The position numbers and the translations under genes were made by a program. DNA of 64,000 nt from Tubulanus polymorphus (Eukaryota > Nemertea > Palaeonemertea > Tubulaniformes > Tubulanidae), in the NCBI RefSeq assembly GCF_964204645.1, contig NC_134035.1, positions 4,836,501-4,900,500 on the forward strand, read 5' to 3'. Positions 14,861 through 62,700 of this stretch are shown here, one piece after another. Below the pieces are notes generated by a model. It was not told where the DNA came from and made no database searches. It saw only the letters and a program-made list of their open reading frames with translations. Positions within the stretch are counted from its first letter, which is position 1. Every line of letters begins with the position of its first letter.

Positions 14861-15049
14861 AAATTGATGTCTATATTTGATATTGTTTGTTATTGTTTTA
14901 TTCATTCCACTCTTATTGTGAGAATTAATGGTCTATTGGTGACTCGGGGGGCTTCGATCATAGGTTCGTGTAGAGACTCTGATGGTAAGACGATGAAGAA
15001 TAGGCTACACATTGCCCTGGCAGGTTAGGAATGAAGGCCCGTCACCCTG

Positions 15050-16300
15050 GGAATAACTCCTTTATGCCCTGGCAAGCGAGTATAGGTCCGGTCCCGCATT
15101 TAGGCTGTCTTCCTAGGGTGAAATTGGCCTTTTTTGCCCTGGCAAGCGAGTATAGGTCCGGTCCCGCATTTAGGCTGCCTTTCCTAGGGGGAAATTGGCC
15201 TTTTTGGCTCCTTTTTGCCCTGGCAAGCGAGTATAGGTCCGGTCCCGCATTCAGGCTGCCTTTCCTAGGGTGAAATTGGCCTTTTTGGCTCCTTTTTGCC
15301 CTGGCAAGCGAGTATAGGTCCGGTCCCGCATTCAGGCTGCCTTTCCTAGGGTGAAATTGGCCTTTTTGGCTCCTCTTTGCCCTGGCAAGCGAGTATAGGT
15401 CCGGTCCCGCATTCAGGCTGCCTTTCCTAGGGTGAAATTGGCCTTTTTGGCTCCTTTTTGCCCTGGCAAGCGAGTATAGGTCCGGTCCCGCATTTAGGCT
15501 GCCTTTCCTAGGGTGAAATTGGCCTTTTTGGCTCCTCTTTGCCCTGGCAAGCGAGTATAGGTCCGGTCCCGCATTCAGGCTGCCTTTCCTAGGGTGAAAT
15601 TGGCCTTTTTGGCTCCTTTTTGCCCTGGCAAGCGAGTATAGGTCCGGTCCCGCATTTAGGCTGCCTTTCCTAGGGTGAAATTGGCCTTTTTGGCTCCTTT
15701 TTGCCCTGGCAAGCGAGTATAGGTCCGGTCCCGCATTCAGGCTGCCTTTCCTAGGGTGAAATTGGCCTTTTTGGCTCCTCTTTGCCCTGGCAAGCGAGTA
15801 TAGGTCCGGTCCCGCATTCAGGCTGCCTTTCCTAGGGGGAAATTGGCCTTTTTGGCTCCTTTTTGCCCTGGCAAGCGAGTATAGGTCCGGTCCCGCATTC
15901 AGGCTGCCTTTCCTAGGGTGAAATTGGCCTTTTTGGCTCCTCTTTGCCCTGGCAAGCGAGTATAGGTCCGGTCCCGCATTCAGGCTGCCTTTCCTAGGGG
16001 GAAATTGGCCTTTTTGGCTCCTTTTTGCCCTGGCAAGCGAGTATAGGTCCGGTCCCGCATTTAGGCTGCCTTTCCTAGGGTGAAATTGGCCTTTTTGGCT
16101 CCTTTTTGCCCTGGCAAGCGAGTATAGGTCCGGTCCCGCATTCAGGCTGCCTTTCCTAGGGTGAAATTGGCCTTTTTGCGCTGGCAAGCGAGTATAGGTC
16201 CGGTCCCGCATTTAGGCTGCCTTTCCTAGGGAGAAATTGGCCTTTTTTGGCTCCTTTTTGCCCTGGCAAGCGAGTATAGGTCCGTTCTTGCGTCTAGGCT
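15050..16300. repeat. 81-bp minisatellite, about 15 copies
   Basis: The unit contains gccctggcaagcgagtatag, gtccggtcccgcattcaggc and tgcctttcctaggg. The word gagtataggtccgg recurs at 15229, 15310, 15391, 15472 and so on, every 81 bp. The first spacing (15078 to 15148) and one near the right end are only 70 bp. Because 81 is divisible by three, one minus-strand frame stays open for 389 codons as a 27-residue repeat. The 70-bp units shift the frame at the edges, there is no splice or start context, and no homology is recognised. I treat it as non-coding. Each unit carries a CCTAGG site. Confidence 0.9.
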
Positions 16301-26800: not shown

Positions 26801-29800
26801 CCAAAAATAAAACTTTTAAGTTATTTTTCTAAGGGAGAGATGACTGGTACACAGTTACAGATATAGGCTAGGGGTAGTAATACCAATATCACTTCTCTCC
26901 AGGAAGAGATGACTGATAAACAGTTACAGATATAGGCTAGGGGTAATAATACCAATATCACTTCTCTCCAGGAAGAGATGACTGATAAACAGTTACAGAT
27001 ATAGGCTAGGGGTAATAATACCAATATCACTTCTCTCCAGGGAGAGATGACTGATACACAGTTACAGATATAGGCTATGGGTAATGATACCAATATCACT
27101 TCTCTCCAAGGAGAGACGACTGATAAACAGTTACAGATATAGGGTCGGGGTAATAATACCAATATCACTTCTCTCCAGGAAGAGATGACTGATAAACAGT
27201 TACAGATATAGGCTAGGGGTAATAATACCAATATCACTTCTCTCCAGGAAGAGATGACTGATAAACAATTACAGATATAGGCTAGGGGTAATAATACCAA
27301 TATCACTTCTCTCCAGGAAGAGATGACTGATAAACAGTTACAGATATAGGGTCGGGGTAATAATACCAATATCACTTCTCTCCAGGAAGAGATGACTGAT
27401 AAACAGTTACAGATATAGGCTAGGGGTAATAATACCAATATCACTTCTCTCCAGGAAGAGATGACTGATAAACAGTTACAGATATAGGCTAGGGGTAATA
27501 ATACCAATATCACTTCTCTCCAGGGAGAGATGACTGATACACAGTTACAGATATAGGCTATGGGTAATAATACCAATATCACTTCTCTCCAGGTAGAGAT
27601 GACTGATATACAGTTACAGATATAGGCTCGTGGTAATAATACCAATATCACTTCTCTCCAAGGAGAGACGACTGATATACAGTTACAGATATAGGCTCGT
27701 GGTAATGATACCAATATCACTTCTCTCCAGGTAGAGATGACTGATATACAGTTACAGATATAGGCTCGTGGTAATAATACCAATATCACTTCTCACCAGG
27801 GTGAGATGACTGATGCACAGTTACAGTCTCAATAATTAGCTGATGTTAAGATCGCCAAAGGGGTCCATCGCTTAATTTTATTGTTATTAAGCAAAACTGA
27901 CATCTAAAATACTCTTGGAAATACAATTCATCCGTTCTACTTTCAGCAACATCATGTTAAGAACAATCGCTTGGGTCGTATTTTTCGTAGCCGTCGTTTA
28001 CATGGTTACCGGACAAAACTCGACGATGGCGCCAGGCGGAAACACCGGTGTGGCCGGCGGAAACACCGGTGTGGCCGGCGGAAACACCGGTATGGACAAC
28101 GGAAACTCGACCAGCGGAGGAAACTCAACCGAGAGCGCTGAATCATCCTCATCTTCATCGTCGTCGTCATCTTCGGAAGAGGATTCCGGTTCGTCGTCCG
28201 AAGAATCCTTCGATACTTCAAACAGCACTGGTAAGTGTACTTTAAACTCGGGGCCTTATGTTTTACTCATCAAAAACTGATTTGATTTCGTCGTTGATTC
28301 AGTTTAGTTATCGATTCAAGTTTAACACTGACTAATTCTAACTGTAACACACGATTGTGGAACCGAAACCTTGACCAATTTTTTAAGATAGATTAATGGG
28401 CATTCATTGAGTCTATATGCATCGGTGAGGGAGAGGCTAGAAATTTGTCAATTCTATGCATAATGCTTAGAATTGGATGGTTGCATACATTGGTGATTTG
28501 AAAATCAGCAATATAGTTATTGAGTTTAGATACTTTAATCTGAATGAACCATTACGACACAAATGACCATAAAGCCTTTTACTAACAATACTAACGATAT
28601 TATATTCATTCCAGACACTGGAAATTCAACATCTGCCAACTCAACTGTTGTCAGGAGGAAGAGACAATTGGAGGTGAGTTTTTTTTAATAGAATCTCAAT
28701 TAGGAATGCTCTCAGCTTGACTGTTTAGCAGAAAATTTCGTTTTAACTGATAGATCCTTATATCCAATATAAAATCCATCCATTCGGAGAAACCTGTTAC
28801 TATAAATGAACTTCAAGGCACCAGGAAATCTGTTTGTTATGAAGTCATCAATGAACATTTAAGAAAATATCTTTTTCCGATTCCTTTTTTCAGATCTAAA
28901 CGCAGCCGATATTTCTTTCCAAATCTAAAATATTTCCCGATTGAAGATGAGGAAAAAGTTGAAAAAATATTAAATTGTGATTTCTATCATTCAAAAGCAA
29001 CTTATTGTCTTTTCACTGAAGTTTCGTTCAGGATTTTTATGTTCATCACGATGAAAGACTTTCGCTAAGGAATGGATCAACCACAGGTTAGATTCAGAAT
29101 TACTTTATACAACTGACCTAACACAGGTTCAATCCCATTTCTTTCCACAATTTGGTTCAGTACACAGAATTGCAAACAGCCCTGTTTGGAAAGGTTAAAT
29201 CTATTCTATACTCGGTACTCACTCTTCTTGGAATTTCGGAGATTTCGAACCGCGATAATTCCCCTTGCTGGCCTTCATCATAGATTTCAGCGGTTGCGCG
29301 CGAGGGTTCACGTTGACGATAACTCTCGATTCGAGTTGAGACGTTTCCGGTGACTGTGGGCGCGGCATCGAGGAAGACGCGGGAACGCCAGAGGAGGAGG
29401 AGGAGGATGGATTCAGAACGTGCGGTATATGATGAACCGGCTCGGTGGCACCATGAGTCTGAAAACATAAAACGCAAAATTCACAAACAACAAAACAGTT
29501 CCATAACAAGAGAAATCCCACAATAAGTTCAGCCAAAACGAGAAACTTGAATAGAAGAGTTATATATATTTGCGCAACGTTTCGGCTAAAGACTATTAGC
29601 CATCATCAGGCGTACTCAGTACGCCTGATGATGGCTAATAGTCTTTAGCCGAAACGTTGCGCAAATATATATAACTCTTCTATTCAAGTTTCTCGTTTTG
29701 GCTGAACTTATTGTGGGATTTCTCTTGTTATCTTCTTACACGGATATTGTGTATCTTCTCGTCTCAAAACAGTTCCATAGTTCTACAGTAAGAAAATTTG

Positions 29801-42973: not shown

Positions 42974-45900
42974 ATGACGTCCACGGCACCCGCCGCTGAT
43001 ATCGACGCCGCTTACAAACCCTTCAAAGGCGACGATTTCGACGACGAAGTGAACGATCCGTTGAAGGAACCCGAACGAGCTCCTCCCGGCGAACCGGAGG
43101 ATATTTCCACCGATCAGGACGGCGGACTCGTCAAACAGGTTTTACGGATAGGATGGGGCGAATCGCCGTTGTCCGGTGATAAAGTTCGCGTTCATTATTT
43201 GGGAACATTTTTAGACGGCACGAAATTCGACTCGAGCTACGACCGAAATGAGTTCTTCGAATTTGAATTGGGGAAAGGTACGTGTGACCTATATTACGTC
43301 CTTTTCATATTAAGATGGCCTTTTTGGAATTTTATCAAATTCTGTGAAACTTTCAGTTTCTAAGACGAAAATCATTTTGCCCTTATCTCCAAACAGTGAT
43401 TTAATCCAATTTGGCCGCCTTAATATGCATGAGGCGTACTGTATTATGTGTATTAATGATGAACAATAAAGTAAGCCAACAATTCAACATTTAACATGTC
43501 TACTTATAGGTCAGGTTATTAAAGCCTGGGACATCGGCGTTCCAACCATGAAACGAAACGAAAAAGCCAAGTTCGTCTGCAAACCCGAATACGCTTACGG
43601 GGAACACGGCAGCGGAAAAATACCGCCGCACGCTACGTTAGTTTTCGAAATCGAGTTGAAAGATTGGACGAGTGAAGATATCTCGCCGAAAGGCAGCGAA
43701 GGATTGATTTACAGGCGAACTCTTCGTAAGGGTGAAGGTTACAAGATGCCCAACGATGGTGGTGTAGTGGAAGGTAATATTTCTGATTGCGTTTGAAGTA
43801 GTATTTATTTAACACTTTTTTAAAATCAATTTTTATACTGGCATGCATTAGTTTCGACTGTAGTTTTACTGAAACCTAGAAACTGTACTCCTTCAGACAG
43901 TCTGTAGCCTGTAACCATTCCCTGTCAGACATGATTCCACCCTTTCAGATTTTCACCATTTTAGTGTTAAGCGTGGACGATCAGTTTATGAAAGTATGCT
44001 GATGAAATATGGAATGTCTGGTGTTTGTAGTTCATTTTCAATTAAAATGTCTTAGGTGAAATTCGGGGTCCAGTTTCATAGACTGGTATCATCTTTAACC
44101 TAGGGGCCCGTTTTGTAGACTGGTATTAACTTTAACCCAGGGCTTAACTCAGTTGCAAATGAATTGAGTTAGCCCCTGGGGTAAAGTTAGTACTAGTCTA
44201 TAAAATGGGGCCCTGGACGCATGTGAAGTATGGATGATCAGTTTATGCTGATAGTGAGGTTGTACAGGGTGCGGGCTGCAGACTGAATCCATATCTGTGT
44301 TAAATTCTAAACCTAATCTAATCCTTCTCTGGAAGGGTATCAGGACAATTCCCCCCCCCCCCCGAATGAAATCTTTTTAATGTTGAAGTAACACAGATAT
44401 TTACTTCAAATTAATTACACAAAGTGAACTAATACTAGCTTATTACTCAAGGACTGCTTTAAAATTTTTGATCTGCACACAACATCAGTAATTCTATATC
44501 TTATAAATCTATATTCAATAATATACAAATGAATTTCTAAGTAAAGTATTTAGGTGGTGTTAATCCAAATGATAATCAAAAAGGATTTTATTCGGGGGGG
44601 GGGGGCAATTGTCCTAGAATCCTCTGGAAGTTAGGGCAATAACCTTGCACTCAAGTACAGCCTTCTGGCTTACCCATTGTCCTTTCCAAATTATCTGATG
44701 CTGTATTTATGAAATTTATTGTAAAAGGGAGATAAGTGAAGAAATTTTATTCTAACAGTGCACATCGTCGGCCATTACGATAAAAAACAATTCGACGATC
44801 GCGAAGTGAAATTCGTCGTCGGCGAAGGCAGCGAATCGGGAATCATCGACGGAATCGAACACGCCGTGAAGAAGTTCAAGCAGGGTGAGAAATCGCGGCT
44901 GAAAATCAAATCGAAACTAGCGTTCGGTAAAGATGGCAAAGAGGAATGGGGAATCCCGGCAGATGCGGATATCGAATACGACGTCGAGTTGAAGAATTTT
45001 GAGCGTGTACGTATGATTTAATGGTTTGGCTGATCGTGATGCTTAGAATCCCTAAAAACCTTTGAGTCGGAGTTTTTGAAAAACTGTATTCTTCTTTTAT
45101 AGGCTAAAGAAGGTTGGGAAATGGACGCAGAAGAGAAACTTGACCAGTCGCAAATAGTTAAAGACAAAGGAACGAATTATTTCAAGGTCAGTTAAATACG
45201 TGAAATTCAGTTGATCGAAGAAAGTGTTTCGTAAAATGTGCCTTACTCAGTTACTGTAAATATTTTTGATTGAGTTATAAAGGAATACTGAGTTCGGGAC
45301 TCGGTTCAAGTATTGTCAAATTTATACCGAGAATTGGCGAAATTAAACCACAAATTTCAGCTATTTTGAATTGAAGGCTAGTTCCTCTTTATTTTTATGC
45401 AAAAAAAAACAACAATTACGAGTTGAAGTTTTGGAAACGTCCAATATCGATTTGTAGATTTTCTTTAATTGAATTAAAACGGTAACTTTAAATCTTATTT
45501 TATTTGTAACTTCGAAGGATGGAAAATATAAATTAGCGGTGAAACAATACAAGCAAGTGATCGATTATCTGGAGGAGAAACAGGATCATGAGTTTAACGG
45601 GGACGATGAGAAAACTCGCCGCTCGAAACTCATGTCGGCGGCGTATTTCAACATGAGTTTATGTTACATCAAAGTAAAGAACTGGTTCGAGGCTTACCGA
45701 GCGGCCGACCGCGGACTCGACCTCGATAAGAATAACGAGAAGGGCCTCTATCGTCGTGGTTTGGTGAGTAGCGAGCGAATATAGATATGTTTCATTTAAG
45801 GTGTGAGAAAGGAATGGCTGGTATCTGATCCATAAAGCCACAACAGAATCTCAAGTTAAACAAAATTGATCCTTGAAAATAGTATATATGTCTTTGTACG

Positions 45901-48900
45901 ATACTGGAACATACTGTGGAACCTCGTTACGACGAACTCGGACACAACGATTCATCGGATATAACAAATATAGAACTTTGTCCCAAGTCAGATAATCTAA
46001 TTAATTACATGCTGGATATGAAGAACTATGGGTTACAACGAGCATGTTTTCTGGTCCCGTGAAGCTCGTTGTAACGAGGTTCCACTGTGTATACTATTTT
46101 CAAGGATGAATTTTGTTTTAGTTGTGATTCTGTTGAGGCTTTATAGATCAGTCGACTCTACTGGTTGTAGTGTCAGGTCTAGTTAGGCTTAAGTTGTGTA
46201 TCCATAATCGGTGCACTAGGCTGATGTAGATAACTCCTTACGAGTCATTGCTAGGAGTCACTTCTCACCCTGTAGAACCACTAATCTGAAATCAGGTTCT
46301 TGTAAGTGCAGTAGACTGCTTACATCTTAAGTTAGCCTATGGAAATTCAATTGCTATACAATTGAAATTAGGTTCTTAAATTTTTTGTTGACAATCAGCT
46401 GATAAATTCTAGTTAAGAGGCACCCGAAGTTAGACTGTGGAAATTTAATTGATATTCAATAGAAATCAGGTTCTTAAGATTTTACTTTACATTAAGCCGA
46501 TAAATTCTAGTTAAGAAGAGCCCGTCTTTGATGCGCGTGCGCTTTTCATTTCAGGCTCGTTACGAATTACGCGATTTCGACGAAGCTGAGAGGGATTTGA
46601 AACGCGTTCTCGAAATCGACCCGAAGAACAAAGCCGCGCATAATCAACTGATACTGTGTCGACAGAAAATCAAAACGGAGAGGGAGGTGGCGAAAAAGAA
46701 ATACTTCGGCATGTTCGATAAGTTCGCTAAGATCGACGAAAAGGTACGAGATAAAAGATTTCTATTACCTCAAGTCTTTCAGTGCTGTCTTAAAAGTGTC
46801 CCTAAAGCGTGGAGCAGTATGGCCGAGTGATTGGAGTGCTCGGCTCTGGGAAGCCAGGTCGTGGGTTCGAAACCCCGTACATTGCCGTAGTGTCCTCGGG
46901 CAAGACACTTATCCTCATCGCCTCTCTCCACCCAGGAGTAAATGGGTACCTGGTCTGATGGATGACTCCTGAGCGCCTAGCAGCTGCTCGGATGTTACCT
47001 CTCCCCAGGGAGAGATGACTGATACATGGAATAGAGTTATAGGCTGGGGGTAATAATACCAAGTTTGGAGCGCATTTGAACAAGACTCTAGTTTGGATAC
47101 TTGCGCTATGTAAATGTCAATTATTATTATTATTATTATTATTATAAAGTGCTGGAGATAATTTGAAACTTTAAAAAGAATTCCACCCCAGTGTTCAATA
47201 ACAGGCATAGCACTTTCATCGCCAATTTATACACTGCACTGCGGTGTAGATGTGCTGGTAGGGTTGAAAACGAACGCTATGAGATGGGAAAACACACGAC
47301 ATACCGGTACATAGTCTTAATGTTTCTAGCAGAATGCTTAACCATTTTCATGGTACAGTCAAATTCGAGACGGTCATTTGGTCGATGACTTACCAGTATC
47401 CAAATGACGATTTACGCTTAGTAAATTGAATTGGGAAATTACAAACTGGAATTCAAAAAATGAAAAACGACTTCAGTAATGTGTTGATATTACTGAGACT
47501 TGGGTTCGGCAGTATTTATTTGAAAGATAAACTTGAAATACGTAAATGAGAAAGATATCAGCATTTGATCATTCATTATTTACTACAAAGAAATCCGTGT
47601 AATTGCTGCCGCGTTTTGATGAACTGATTTTTGATTCATCTCTAAACAGAAAGCAAAAGAGAACAAACAAAACGGCGACGGTATGAAAAAGATCGAGGAT
47701 TGGAAGAACGAAGAGGCAGACGGAATGATCTCGCTCGAACAGGAAGCCGAAGCGTTCGGCGAAGAGATTAACGTCGTGAAAGAAGAGAAGAAGGATAGAA
47801 GTGAGAAGATGGATGCGACCGAGATGCCCACGGATCACCCCGGTAAATAGACATTACTTTCATTTCGGTATATTTCATGTGCTTTGCTAAAATCTCCACA
47901 AACAACAAGAAAAAAAGCTCGAGGTTATTCTGACTATGTAAACCCAGGGGCCTGTTCCATAGTCGAGACTTACGACCAAAAGTGGTCTTAAATCTTAAAT
48001 CTGGTCTTGAGTTGATAGATTGGCTATATAACCAAGATGGTCTTAGACTGTCTTGAGTCTAAGCCCTGTCTATGTGGAACCAGCCCCAGGGCTCAGTTGC
48101 ACGGTTATGACTTAAAAAAGGTCTTGAATCTTACACAAATGGTCTTAGATTGTGATATTGGCTACGAAAGCTAATTAGTTTAGTCTAGACCAGTTTCGAA
48201 TCTCTAAGTCTTTACTCAGTAACTAACCCCAGGAGTCCGAGTTCGTAGATCTAGACCTAGTATTGATAACAAAAAGTAAATGGCTACGATGATGAACGTT
48301 ATTGTAGCTATCCCCGACGACTTGACGGGCAGCCCGCTCGAGTGCCCTCATCTCGCTATGGTCGACGCCATGAAGAAGGCGTACGAAGACAAACAGAAAA
48401 TCGATAAAATCAAAGCGGAAAAATCGAATAAAGGTACAACGACGAGTAGTAACGATTGCGGTCAACGGCGCTTGTCCTTTGAAACAAGCGAATGTTAATT
48501 CTGCAAGTATTCGAAAAACATTTGTTACGTATTAGGTACTGCATAGGTAAGCGTCTCTTAGCATACGTTGTGATCGGTGTATTGTATGCCTCGTAAAAAG
48601 GACAAGCACTTGACCCCCATATCGTCATTACATGTGCAAGTTTGAGCATAAAACATGCATGTCTATTACGTATATTTATGATGCTTCACTCGTCTTGTTG
48701 TTTAATGTAAATAAAATAGCATGATTTGTTTATTCTTTCTCACAAAGATATGTTGGATTTTTTCATACACATATTTTACTCCCGACCCTGTGAGTAAGCG
48801 TCGCACTAGCAACTACAGACGTAGTCATCGACATACACATAGACATACACAGAGTGGTATTGATTACTGTTATCGCGAATATTGATGTCGTTTTCTCGCG

Positions 48901-50806
48901 CCGAGTCGAAGCAAGACAAGAATTGATCAGTTATTGATCTGCGCGCTCTGTCACAGAACTAGCACTCATTAAGACATCGCGTCGTTAGCAGTAATTACTA
49001 ATTATTTGTCGTCTGCCACTATGCACGGTAATATTGATTTATTCGTAATACCGATGGTCATTTCGTAATGTATATTACGCAGATAAGGCGAAAAAAGAGA
49101 GGGAAGAAAAAGAGAAAAAGTTTGAAGAAGCTCAATCAGCCCATCCCCATATAGAAGGTATCCAGTGATAGCGAATAGTAAATTTTTGATTTAGTTTTGA
49201 TTAAAAAGAGAATATGAAATCCTAATCATTGAAATTAAAAGTACAGACGGTTCTTAGAATGAGCAATGTAGCTGACGAATTTTGTTTTAAGTACCAACCG
49301 ATACGGACGGTAACCCGATATTAGAATGCCCTCATCTGGCGATGGTCGATGCGATGAAAAAAGCGTATGAAGATAAACAAAAACAAGAAGAGGAGACGAA
49401 ACAAAAGAAAATGGCCGCAGCAGAGGAGGCAGCAAAAGGTACAAATGAACCAAAATTATGGAGAATATATGGAGAATAAAGAATCCATTCGGTTCATCGA
49501 GTTGACTTTGTTTTAAATCAATGAAGTTGACCCTGTTTTATAGAAAAAGCTCTGAAAAAAGAACGAGAAGAAGCTCAGAAGCGACTGAGCGAAGCCCGGT
49601 CGGCCCATCCCGATATCGAAGGTATATCACGAATCATAGCTGTAGTTGGTATCGAGAAACTTTGTTGCCGCAGAGAATTGAGTTTGACGCGATTTAACTT
49701 TTGAAAATTTGAATTAAAGTACCGACTGACACTGATGGTAACCCGATATTAGAATGCCCTCATCTGGCGATGGTTGACGCGATGAAAAAGGCGTATGAAG
49801 ATAAATTAAAACAAGAGGAGGAGACAAAACGAAAGAAATTGGCTGCTGCAGAAGATGCTAAAGGTATCGAAGATGGTCTTCACTTGTTGAGGATGCAGAA
49901 ATCTTGCATTTTTGTGTCACGGTGTGTTTCTGACCTTTGTTGATGTTTTCCCATTACATTCTTGTGTAGAAAAAGCTTTGTTAAGGAAAATGGAAGCTCA
50001 GAAGAGACTGAATGAGGCTCAGAACGCCCATCCTAATATCGAAGGTACTTTCATAGTAGCCATAGTCTTTCACGTAGCGCGAGATTTAGATGCAGATATC
50101 TTACGTTTTCGAGTGATATACTTATCGTACATGTACATAATTTGAATTGAAGTGCCCAGCGACACGGACGGTAACCCGATATTAGAATGCCCTCATCTGG
50201 CGATGGTTGACGCGATGAAAAAGGCGTATGAAGACAAACAAAAACAAGACCGGCAAAAATTACAACTCGCGCAAGACGAGAAATGCAGCAGAGAAGGTAG
50301 CATTTGCAGTAGATAGTTGAGAATTAGAAATCGCACAGATTCGTGTCGCAGTAGAGAGTACAGCACTGAGTTAATAGCAGTTATGGAATTGAGATCGTGG
50401 TCGATTCTAGGCCCCGAAACGGTCGAAGATTTGAGCTTAAAATGACGCGGAAGTTGAAGAAAAGTTTGTGGAATTCCATTCCACTACAGGATAAGAGACA
50501 TATTATCCACTTTAGGATGATAAGAGACTTATTCAAGCACTGATTTCAAAGACCTATTTTAATGCTAGACATAGAATTTACCCATTTATATACTTGTAGC
50601 TGTGTTTTATTGCTGTTGTTGCCCTGCATTCATTTACGATTATATATAACGATGTTTTCTTTCACATTTGCAGGTCATTTCTTACTAAAAACTAAATTTC
50701 ATTAAAATTGAATGGACTGATTAATCGATAAAGTCATAGCAAAGATTGCACTGATGATAAGTTTGCAAAATTTTTCGTTTCAGAGACCGAAGCCAATAAA
50801 GTGTGA
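42974..50806 (+). CDS. FKBP51/52-type immunophilin with repeat-exon C-terminal tail, 15 exons, 779 aa
   Basis: Peptidyl-prolyl isomerase and Hsp90 co-chaperone family (FKBP4/5). Exons: 42974-43277, 43510-43773, 44759-45006, 45103-45186, 45518-45763, 46555-46743, 47650-47842, 48308-48433, 49083-49157, 49292-49438, 49544-49621, 49720-49863, 49970-50044, 50153-50296, 50784-50806. FK1 (about 50-160) keeps [34 protein letters not shown] and FEIEL, so it should be catalytic. FK2 (about 170-275) has IEHAV where the active-site Trp lies, so it is probably inactive. Three TPRs follow (about 285-445, [30 protein letters not shown]). Vertebrate members are about 460 aa and end soon after this point. Here residues 510-772 are extra: four A exons ([18 protein letters not shown]) alternate with three B exons (charged helix ending AHPxIEG), all bounded by phase-1 introns. 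The final exon gives ETEANKV, like the VETEA end of human FKBP4. Confidence 0.95.
44103..44213. mobile_element. Palindromic MITE in FKBP intron 2
   Basis: ggggcccgttttgtagactg and cagtctataaaatggggccc-type ends (the latter as ctagtctataaaatggggccc) pair over most of the length around gttgcaaatgaat. 111 bp, non-coding. Confidence 0.7.
44326..44635. mobile_element. Inverted repeat with homopolymer C/G tracts in FKBP intron 2
   Basis: Left arm ctctggaagg..caggacaatt followed by a C run of about 15 and cgaatgaaatcttttt. Right arm is aaaaaggattttattc followed by a G run of about 11, then caattgtcctagaatcctct. The arms are reverse complements apart from run length, with about 190 bp between them. 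This is a MITE-like element, or a repeat whose ends contain poly-C. Confidence 0.65.
45832..46150. mobile_element. Mariner/pogo-like MITE inside an older palindrome (FKBP intron 5)
   Basis: Inner element 45914-46088 has ends ctgtggaacctcgttacgac and gttgtaacgaggttccactg, typical of Tc1/mariner-pogo MITEs. Outer arms (about 45832-45900 and 46090-46150) pair: aaattgatccttgaaaatag / ctattttcaaggatgaattt and acaacagaatct / gattctgttgagg. Confidence 0.65.
46768..47270. mobile_element. piggyBac-like MITE split by a SINE
   Basis: ctttcagtgctgtcttaaa on the left, and aaagtgctggagataatttg ... tgcactgcggtgtagatgtg on the right, match the MITE family at 41510-41792. The SINE at 46807-47146 sits between them. 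Left taaagcg and right taaagtg may be its target duplication. The outer TTAA has decayed. Confidence 0.55.
46807..47146 (+). mobile_element. tRNA-derived SINE
   Basis: The A box tggccgagtgattgg (46820-46834) and B box gggttcgaaaccc (46863-46875) form a Ser/Leu-tRNA-like head. A central domain (gtgtcctcgggcaagacact, aggagtaaatgggtacctgg) resembles the conserved cores of animal SINEs. Next comes the segment that was amplified at 26821-27830, then gcgctatgtaaatgtcaatt and an (ATT)n tail. Length about 340 bp. It lies in FKBP intron 6 in sense orientation. Confidence 0.85.
47947..48235. mobile_element. Two adjacent palindromic MITEs in FKBP intron 7
   Basis: 47947-48087 pairs ggggcctgttccatagtc with tatgtggaaccagcccc and contains agtggtcttaaatcttaaat and tgatagattggctatataac. 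48091-48235 repeats the theme (gctcagttgcacggttatga ... actcagtaactaacccc). Same family as 39317-39450. The next exon begins only about 70 bp downstream. Confidence 0.6.
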
Positions 50807-51858: not shown

Positions 51859-51864
51859 AATAAA
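51859..51864 (+). terminator. Candidate FKBP polyadenylation signal AATAAA
   Basis: First good plus-strand AATAAA found after the FKBP stop, about 1.05 kb downstream. No cleavage-site evidence beyond the hexamer. Confidence 0.35.
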
Positions 51865-59453: not shown

Positions 59454-59750
59454 CGAAATAATGTATAATTGTTATTGCGTATGTTTACACAGCTGTTTTT
59501 CCTAGAAATGAACGATTCTATTTCTAATTCAAAACAACAAACAACTTTTTTAGATTAAAATTGAATTTATTTAAGCTTAGGCCTATAATTAGTTGGACCT
59601 TGTGGCTAATGACTGTAGCAGCCTAATAAAATTAAAACAAATTGAAAAACTACCACAAATTGAAGGTCTTAACCCTAAGCTGTTTTATCGGCCCGAGGAC
59701 AGTGCCCTTTCTCTGTAAGCATTAATTTAAAATTTGGTTTTATTTCCAGG

Positions 59751-62700
59751 ATGCCAAAGGTTTATTGCAAATGGTCAGAAGACCAAATGACCAACGCGAT
59801 TGAATCAGTGAAATCTGGCTCTTCGATATTGAGAGCAGCCAGTGAGTTTTCTGTACCAAAATCAACTCTGCATGATAGAGTTAGTGGAAAAATCTGTCAT
59901 GCAACAGCAAAATTAGGCAGGCCGACCCATCTCAGCATGGTGGATGAGACAAAACTTGCAGACTTTGCAAAGAACCGAGCTGATTTGGGGTATGGGTTTT
60001 CGAAAAGTAATTTTCTGAGGTATGCTGGTGATTTGGCACTCAAACGCGGCAAACCATTCCAGGAGGTATGTCTATTGACTTGTGATCTGTTAATTCTCAG
60101 CTTGGTATGTAGGCCTATAAGTTAAAAAAACCTATATATATATACCGGTATTTATATCTGTAGGTTGTTCCTAGTGACCAGTTTTGGGCTGGCTTTAAAG
60201 CCAGACACCCAAGCGTATCGTTGCGAAAGCCAGAGGGCACTGCTGCTGTTAGGCACCAGTGCATGAACGTGAAAAAAGTAGGCAGCTATTTCAAGGCCAT
60301 CCAGAGTGCATTGGCTGGTATTCAGCCAATGTACATCTGGAACCTTGACGAAACCGGGGTTCAGTTGACCCACGTACCAGGGAAAATCGTAGCAAGGTAG
60401 GGCAAATTGATGATTTTTGATGTAACGAACTGGCCAATTACACTGATCTTATTACAACTACATTCTTATTGTTAATATATCATCTAGAAACAGAGTTTAA
60501 TTTTACAATTCTCTGCTGATACCTTAATGAATAGGCCTACTTGGTTTTTTCAGAAAAGGAAGCAAGTACGTTCAGTCACGGATTAGCGGAAACCGGGAGA
60601 CGATTACTGTTATGGCGTGTGGTAATGCCTCAGGGCAAATGCTGGCACCACACGTCATATTCAAAGGAAAAACTGTCGCTTCGCTGCAATCGGTGGATTC
60701 GATAAATGCTCCGGCTGGAACAACTCTGTCAGTTTCAGAAACAGGGTGGACTAAACAGGTATTTATTAAAACAACAAAAATATTAAACAATTATTTGAAA
60801 TCCACCATATTCTAACCATTAAATGTATTTTATCTTTGAATTTTCTAGGGTATTGCCACACTTTGGTTTCGAGAAAGCTTCCTTCCGGCAATCGGACAAA
60901 CACGTCCACAAATATTAATTTCAGATGGCCATAATAGTCACAACTTCCTAGAACTAGTCGAATTAGCCAGACAGAACGAAATCACTCTAGTTGAGTTGCC
61001 AGAGCATACATCACACTGGCTGCAACCCCTAGATAGGTAACACCACAATCCTTTTCTTAACTCTTTGTAGTATATTCTAGCAATAATATTAATGGTTTAT
61101 TTTTACATAAACAGAACGTGTTTCAAGACTTTAAAGTCTAGCTGGAACCGCTTATGTCAAGAATTCTCCAATGATTACCCGGGGAGAGTGATAAACAAAA
61201 GCTGCTTCTTCGAAATATTTCGCAAGGCTTGGCAGAGCATTTCACCAGATATGCTTATCAATGGTTTCAGGTCTTGCGGAATATTTCCTTTCAACCCGTA
61301 TGCCATACCAAACGAGGCGTACTTACCGTCTACAACAACTGTTCGCGATATAGTGAGTTATACATTCATATATGTATTGTATCGGCTAAAATGTCCTCAT
61401 ATATAAGTGACTAGCATTTATTTATATTCAGATATCAGATCCTGCTTCATTATTGCCAATACAATCATTTGAATTGAATCAAAATCCACCAAGCGAGGTA
61501 ACATATTACAATTATGCAATTTTGCAATAGAATTTGAAAAATTTACGTTTTTCTTGATGAATTTTGTTCCATAGTTACACTAATAACAGTTGACGATAGC
61601 GTTATGATTGCTTTAACAAACTTTTAGAATTACTTCTGTGTTTCAGCATTTTTCTGTCCTTGGAGAGCTGCTACATGCAAGATATCCTTTTAAAAACCTG
61701 AATAAACCTGAATAAATTTGCAAGAAACTGAAATGAATTCAATTCAAAATATTTTATTTTAACTTTTGAAAATTAGTGAAAGATACTTATACTGTTTGAT
61801 ATTTTTTTCAGGCTCTACCGGTGAACAATTCTCGTTCTTATAGTACTGCGCTACAGACGTTGGAGTCGGTTATCTCACCTGAAATGAAAATACAATTTGA
61901 ACGTCAATACAATGAGGGATATGATGTCGCGGGAGATTCCCTGTATGAGGCATGGAAATCCCTGAAATCAAACGAAATTAACATTCATTCCAACATTTTC
62001 AACAATTCATCATCGCCAGGTGAGACTCAAATGAAATGGGTCTGTTTGATTCAACTAATTGTTAGAACGTGAAATTACCTTTCTAATCTCATTTTCAAGC
62101 TGACTCGGACAAGGATGTTTTAAAATATCCGATTGTGGAAAGTCGTCGCTCGAAAAATCGCACAGAAGATTCGAAACGATATTTCATCCTCACAGCAGAT
62201 GATGCCTATGCGAAAGCTCTCGAGAAAAATCGGAAAAAAGAAGAGAAAGAAAACAAGAAATTAGAACGACAAGAGAGAAATAAGAAATGTGCAACAAGTG
62301 TAAGTTTCAGGGACAACCTCCGGTCGAGTTGTGAGTTCATTCATTTCCCGGTACATGGTGATGATTCTTGACCTGCTAGGTACTTAGTCTATAAATATTT
62401 CAGGCGTCCTCAAGACCAGTGGAGTCTCCTGTCGAGGAAAAAAAAAACGAAAATCGTGTAGTTGAGGTAGGCCTATGAAAATTAAACATTTAATGAAATA
62501 AGGTTTTTTGGAATTTAAAATTGAGAAGGGCTACAATGTGTATCTGAATTTCAGGATCCTGTGAGTGTGCCTGAAACAAGTGGCGTGAACTTGATTCACG
62601 AGATCAATATAAGGTAAATTACTACATGCTTAGCTTAAAAACATGTAATAGGCCTACCTGGTTAATAGTGATGAATAATCTATCATTACTGGGTAATTAT

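Follow-up and report, generated by a model that had tools for sequence, protein, structure and literature searches.

A tail of tandemly duplicated exon pairs in an FKBP4/5-type Hsp90 co-chaperone gene of the nemertean Tubulanus polymorphus

We have analysed 64,000 nucleotides of the genome of the nemertean Tubulanus polymorphus (RefSeq assembly GCF_964204645.1, contig NC_134035.1, positions 4,836,501 to 4,900,500 of the forward strand), a stretch that we call the window and in whose numbering positions are given. One gene of the FKBP4/5 type occupies positions 42974-50806 of the + strand, with 15 coding exons, 779 residues, a frame that is open throughout and GT-AG borders at 14 of 14 introns. 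A preliminary description, made from the letters of the window, had seen here an FKBP co-chaperone gene with a tail of tandemly duplicated, in-frame exons, and the gene model bears this out. After exon 7 the exons follow one another in the order A1 B1 A2 B2 A3 B3 A4, before the gene closes with a short last exon. The coding exons, each with the evidence on which it was placed or characterized, are the following:

42974-43277, + strand: exon 1 from the ATG at 42974 (coding part), beginning of FK1; gene model, Pfam, phmmer
43510-43773, + strand: exon 2, end of FK1 and start of FK2; gene model, Pfam, phmmer
44759-45006, + strand: exon 3, FK2; gene model, phmmer
45103-45186, + strand: exon 4, start of the TPR domain; gene model, phmmer
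45518-45763, + strand: exon 5, TPR domain with the clamp residues; gene model, residue comparison
46555-46743, + strand: exon 6, TPR domain and helix-7 extension; gene model, residue comparison, with the role of helix 7 taken from PMC10716051
47650-47842, + strand: exon 7, acidic linker with PTDHP at its end and a phase-1 donor; gene model
48308-48433, + strand: exon A1, 126 nt, the oldest A copy; gene model, comparison of silent divergence (dS)
49083-49157, + strand: exon B1, 75 nt, charged helix shaft; gene model, charge-pair analysis
49292-49438, + strand: exon A2, 147 nt; gene model, repeat search
49544-49621, + strand: exon B2, 78 nt; gene model, repeat search
49720-49863, + strand: exon A3, 144 nt; gene model, repeat search
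49970-50044, + strand: exon B3, 75 nt; gene model, repeat search
50153-50296, + strand: exon A4, 144 nt, its head like that of the other A exons, its 3' part different, and with no B partner; gene model
50784-50806, + strand: last coding exon, ending in ETEANKV and the stop; gene model, comparison of C-termini

The first seven exons encode two FKBP domains and then a TPR domain, as seen from the Pfam matches (two stretches of FKBP_C, followed by TPR models). When the protein was compared by phmmer with solved chains, human FKBP52 and FKBP51 came out on top (best E 9e-123, the alignment covering residues 37-467 of the query), and 202 of 425 aligned residues (47.5%) are identical to human FKBP52. 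Identity to FKBP52 is complete at the positions that we take to form the FK1 pocket (10/10) and the TPR carboxylate clamp (4/4). The helix-7 positions that we compared are the five named in PMC10716051, which describes these residues as inserting into the cleft of the Hsp90 dimer and reports that FKBP51 no longer bound once two of them were changed; three are identical here (Y411, M414 and F415), and the other two read F for L418 and K for L410. Because the pocket, the clamp and most of the helix-7 residues are kept, both the isomerase (catalytic) and the Hsp90-binding parts of the protein look intact. In the whole assembly (268 Mb, 77 contigs), a query made of the FKBP and TPR domains gave 12 matches, six of which are exons of this gene; since the six others are mere fragments of 33-58% identity, a second gene of FKBP4/5 type is not seen in the assembly. 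At the 3' side, read-through of an unspliced exon 7 gives GK and then a stop, and the first AATAAA on the + strand past the stop codon of the gene lies at 51859. Intron 6 holds, at 46811-47145, a stretch that by eye resembles a short interspersed element, with a tRNA-like head, a box-B-like GGTTCGAAACCC and an ATT-repeat tail.

Our results show that the four A and three B exons lie where they had been placed in the preliminary description, all with GT-AG borders, with lengths divisible by three (7/7) and with phase-1 entry (7/7). Being symmetric phase-1 exons, any of them can be skipped without loss of the frame, as had been stated; the isoforms with 1-4 repeats that had been suggested may exist. 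The distances from one A exon to the next are 984, 428 and 433 bp, the last two agreeing with the earlier values. As in known tandem exon duplications, homologous, symmetric exons of the same phase stand in a row in one frame; here, however, an exon pair alternates, the last A is unpaired, and the exons are so old that their introns can no longer be aligned. Of three points of the description that needed correction, two concern the exons. The B peptide had been read as ending in AHPxIEG, but its G comes from reading through the donor site, and the spliced junction reads AHPxIE-V. The fourfold repetition of A stands for the head of the exon, whereas the likeness of A4 to A2 and A3 is limited to the first ~92 nt: over the 43 nt that follow, A4 differs from them at 27-28 positions in an ungapped comparison, and A2 differs from A3 at 7 of 43. 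Within the 5' parts of A2, A3 and A4, all three pairs are equally close. When the A2 peptide was searched against the assembly, only four matches were obtained at E<=1 and all of them fall in this gene (E 5.6e-26 to 1.0e-9), which places the A repeat far beyond chance; no copies of the A or B exons were found in the assembly outside this gene, where 4/4 and 7/7 of the scored candidates lie.

The A head has been kept with great fidelity. In the A alignment, the peptide from L11 to K29 is identical in 4/4 copies, and the 20 codons that begin with ECPHL carry, between A1 and A2, 10 silent changes (over 10.2 silent sites) but no replacement (over 49.8 sites), a pattern with p ~2e-8 under random placement of the changes; over the same codons the A1-A3 and A1-A4 comparisons are similar. 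Pseudo-exons would not be expected to show this. Because the head is invariant while the silent sites between A1 and the other copies are near saturation, it is under strong selection at the protein level.

The age of the copies was judged from the introns and from the silent sites. A duplication of a 430-bp block had been called recent, and this was not upheld: in local comparisons of nine intron pairs, each against 300 mononucleotide shuffles, 21-251 of the 300 shuffles scored as well, and whole-exon dS amounts to 0.90-0.96 among A2, A3 and A4 and to 1.04 between B2 and B3. Since the introns are no more alike than shuffles and whole-exon dS is ~0.9, the last A/B copies are not recent. The first pair, A1-B1, is older still, as had been proposed. 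The shared intron end tttgaatt(a/g)aag is real for A3 and A4, which differ at one of the 14 nt, and not for A2, which differs from each of them at 4 of 14; by eye, these 14 nt in front of the A3 and A4 acceptors are the sole likeness left among the introns. Running counter to an old age of the copies, dS over the 20-codon core is lower than over the whole exons among A2-A4 (0.53, 0.54 and 0.22), and 38 nt (49310-49347 in A2) are identical in the three exons, silent sites included, although changes have occurred at silent sites elsewhere (p 0.004 by permutation over all sites and 0.031 over third positions). These observations, together with the divergent 3' part of A4, are compatible with gene conversion or unequal exchange restricted to the head, or else with an RNA-level constraint, for instance a splicing enhancer.

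The origin of the unit was also considered. The ancestral DHPTDTE-like stretch had been proposed as the source of the repeat, and comparison does not favour it: when the FKBP52 tail piece was aligned with the four units, 231, 247, 481 and 669 of 1000 shuffles did as well. A derivation of the A/B unit from exon 7, which by eye shows a likeness (DGMKK-to-DHP against DAMKK-to-AHP), is not supported either, with 97-723 of 1000 shuffles as good in local and 100-435 of 1000 in semi-global comparisons of the four units.

The tail had been said to exceed those of vertebrate FKBP51 and FKBP52, and for human FKBP52 this is correct: 46 residues run from M414 to its end, whereas the protein described here has 345 from the corresponding M435 onward, ~270 of which are the A/B array. 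With FKBP4 and FKBP5 (FKBP52 and FKBP51) the gene has in common the order FK1-FK2-TPR, the pocket, the clamp, helix-7 residues and a terminal ETEA, whereas its array is without counterpart in the matched chains. The protein ends in (E)TEANKV, and human FKBP52 in QVETEA, as checked on chains of the PDB. The ETEA that the last exon shares with the human end suggests an FKBP tail whose old last exon was separated from exon 7 by insertion of the array, although four letters are weak evidence.

A repeat unit of A plus B has 67-75 residues, with a charged fraction of 0.38-0.46. An AlphaFold2 model of A2, built from the four A rows and so from four sequences only and for the A part only (mean predicted local distance difference test score 79.3, predicted template modelling score 0.39), shows a short turn containing two bridge residues as well as a helix at 14-48. 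In the three charged shafts we counted 14, 12 and 9 attractive i,i+4 charge pairs against shuffle means of 7.2, 6.6 and 5.3; these numbers are reached by 2, 8 and 44 of 1000 shuffles, and repulsive (like-charge) pairs number two in each. The hydrophobic moment of the shaft is low. Because of this excess of opposite charges at i,i+4, the few like-charge pairs and the low moment, the shaft carries the signature of a single alpha-helix (SAH) rather than of a coiled coil, and may be monomeric; the shafts show the opposite-charge excess, as judged by shuffles, and the scarcity of hydrophobic residues that mark an SAH. Known SAH (ER/K) domains, INCENP's among them, have the same K/E/R/Q-rich helix, salt-bridge excess and low moment, but the shafts described here are short (36-44 residues) and are interrupted by turns and by the conserved heads.

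FKBP51 and FKBP52 are key partners of Hsp90 and drug targets, and little is understood about the short region after their helix 7. We propose, with a probability of about 0.5, that the A/B array is a multivalent docking extension of an Hsp90 co-chaperone that is ordinary in its other parts. A phase-1 exon pair, duplicated step by step, would have added ~270 residues between exon 7 and the last exon, and each A-B unit would form one module, composed of a turn, a conserved helical head and a salt-bridged, charged SAH shaft, whose helix would cross the A/B intron and end at SAHPxIE. Binding to Hsp90 would proceed as usual, through the TPR clamp and helix 7, and beyond the Hsp90-binding helix the tail would present four docking heads, all identical, on semi-rigid shafts. 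These heads could gather several copies of one partner, be it a client, a cytoskeletal or a regulatory protein, in the neighbourhood of the Hsp90-FKBP complex, and their number could be set by splicing. Since all four copies share a fixed head while their shafts vary, the simplest account is that the head binds something and that the copy number adds avidity or reach. The fuller version, in which a lineage-specific, splice-adjustable array holds up to four constrained new binding heads on short single-helix arms and brings several partner copies to each Hsp90-FKBP complex, is tentative and, taken as a whole, doubtful. A constrained module in four copies would be a natural experiment on what co-chaperone tails can recruit, and its 18-residue head is a defined bait toward its partner.

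Several points weigh against a docking array. Because the three shafts are related, their salt-bridge tests do not count as independent, and that of the third shaft is weak; the A head is just modestly amphipathic (moment <=0.31); and the A-B unit was pieced together from exons, with the predicted helix modelled for the A part. The proposal further supposes that the whole tail is transcribed and translated, and the tail may be included in transcripts only in part, or never. In addition, the ATG at 48280, just past a stop, is in frame with A1, which makes a separate tail product possible.

Could the tail be a plain spacer, its charged single alpha-helices determining reach or solubility and its head conserved only as a helix cap? 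The charged fraction and the i,i+4 salt-bridge excess would suit such a role. SAH domains have been described as connectors and springs, and the single helix of INCENP acts as a leash and binds microtubules, according to PMC4571873. A mere cap, however, would not need L11-K29 to be fixed in 4/4 copies, with no replacement against saturated silent change, and we consider this reading unlikely.

It is also conceivable that the A exons are mutually exclusive or cassette exons, one or a few of them entering each mRNA, so that short-tailed isoforms would be made instead of a four-headed array. The symmetric phase 1 of all seven exons would allow this, and tandem exon duplications are associated with mutually exclusive choice in PMC9013439. 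On the other hand, the introns of the array measure 98-649 nt and so pose no evident steric bar, the inverted repeats are short (15-23 nt, 74-84% complementary) and form no clear docking-selector pattern, the B exons are interposed between the A exons, and isoforms with near-identical heads would differ little. We regard this reading as rather improbable.

We give a low probability to the A head being an extra Hsp90- or Hsp70-binding element that mimics the helix-7 extension or an STI1/DP domain. By eye, KKAY of the A head resembles KKKY of the protein's own helix 7, and C-terminal sequences beyond the TPR domain reportedly affect Hsp90 binding (Cheung-Flynn 2003, cited in PMC10716051). Yet A has, by eye, no equivalents of the hydrophobic M414 and F415, the eight matches of an STI1-HOP_DP search of the genome include none at this gene, and no STI1 appears in the Pfam scans. 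Least credible is that the tail lies outside the FKBP protein and comes from a short gene of its own, or from an internal promoter, with its start at the ATG at 48280: this ATG follows a stop and shares the frame of A1, but the phase-1 donor of exon 7 would join A1 in frame, nothing in the repeats corresponds to the intron stretch that would then be coded ahead of A1, and ETEANKV here against VETEA in human FKBP52 looks as if the A/B block had been inserted into an old tail.

Database comparisons gave the putative docking tail no family. Against Pfam, the 270-residue tail scored with PF24341 (the OB fold of DEPS-1) at E 5.4e-6, its 26.3 bits lying under the cut-off of 27 and no single stretch passing. 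We discard this identity and take the score as small chance scores added over the repeats, because the single exons A1, A2, A3 and A4 match no Pfam family and the A2-B2-A3 piece reaches PF24341 at E 0.028 only. Mitochondrial ATP synthase subunit d came up weakly twice (Pfam E 0.029; PDB E 1.6, AMVDAFKKQYEA), without significance and as a lead only. The one NCBIfam match to the tail lies far under its cut-off (18.6 against 124 bits), no significant chain was found by sequence in the PDB (the best E values being 0.07 with the tail and 0.62 with the A profile), and Foldseek with the A model gave no match in the PDB. An EF-hand, a ubiquitin-interacting motif and a heme CP motif, considered by eye, were set aside for lack of canonical spacing or of a family match. 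With the A alignment, none of 200 pattern stretches in the prokaryote collection genome_contigs and none of 47 in viral_contigs was confirmed; as these collections hold no animal genomes, this says nothing on animal lineages. In the literature searched, which included few subscription papers, there was no paper on a tandem repeat or exon duplication in FKBP52/FKBP4 and none for peptide strings of the A head.

Rfam gave no match on the 64,000 nt of the window, and several features apart from the FKBP gene were noted in it. Long open frames of short tandem peptide repeats, one type being GSLNAGPDLYSLARAKRSQKGQFHPRK and the other a second type, lie on the - strand at 15042-16211 and 26821-27792, and are probably minisatellites. 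On the + strand, an open frame at 27891-28280 has a signal-peptide-like start, GGNTGVAGG repeats and a Ser/Glu-rich stretch, and perhaps encodes, as judged by eye, a secreted or matrix protein. Open frames at 59679-60125 and 61071-61406 (+ strand) resemble, also by eye, pieces of pogo/jerky-type transposases (the helix-turn-helix and the C-terminal part). Elsewhere in the assembly, 15 homeodomain matches were obtained at E<=1e-12, and contig C6 holds ten of these in a single run on one strand (5318228-5634747). From signatures that we assume to be diagnostic, these ten are presumably Hox1, Hox2, Hox3, Hox4, Scr, Lox5 (with KLNGP after the homeodomain), Antp, Lox4, Lox2 and Post2, and with these assumed names the ten Hox-like homeodomains form an orderly cluster of the spiralian (lophotrochozoan) type.

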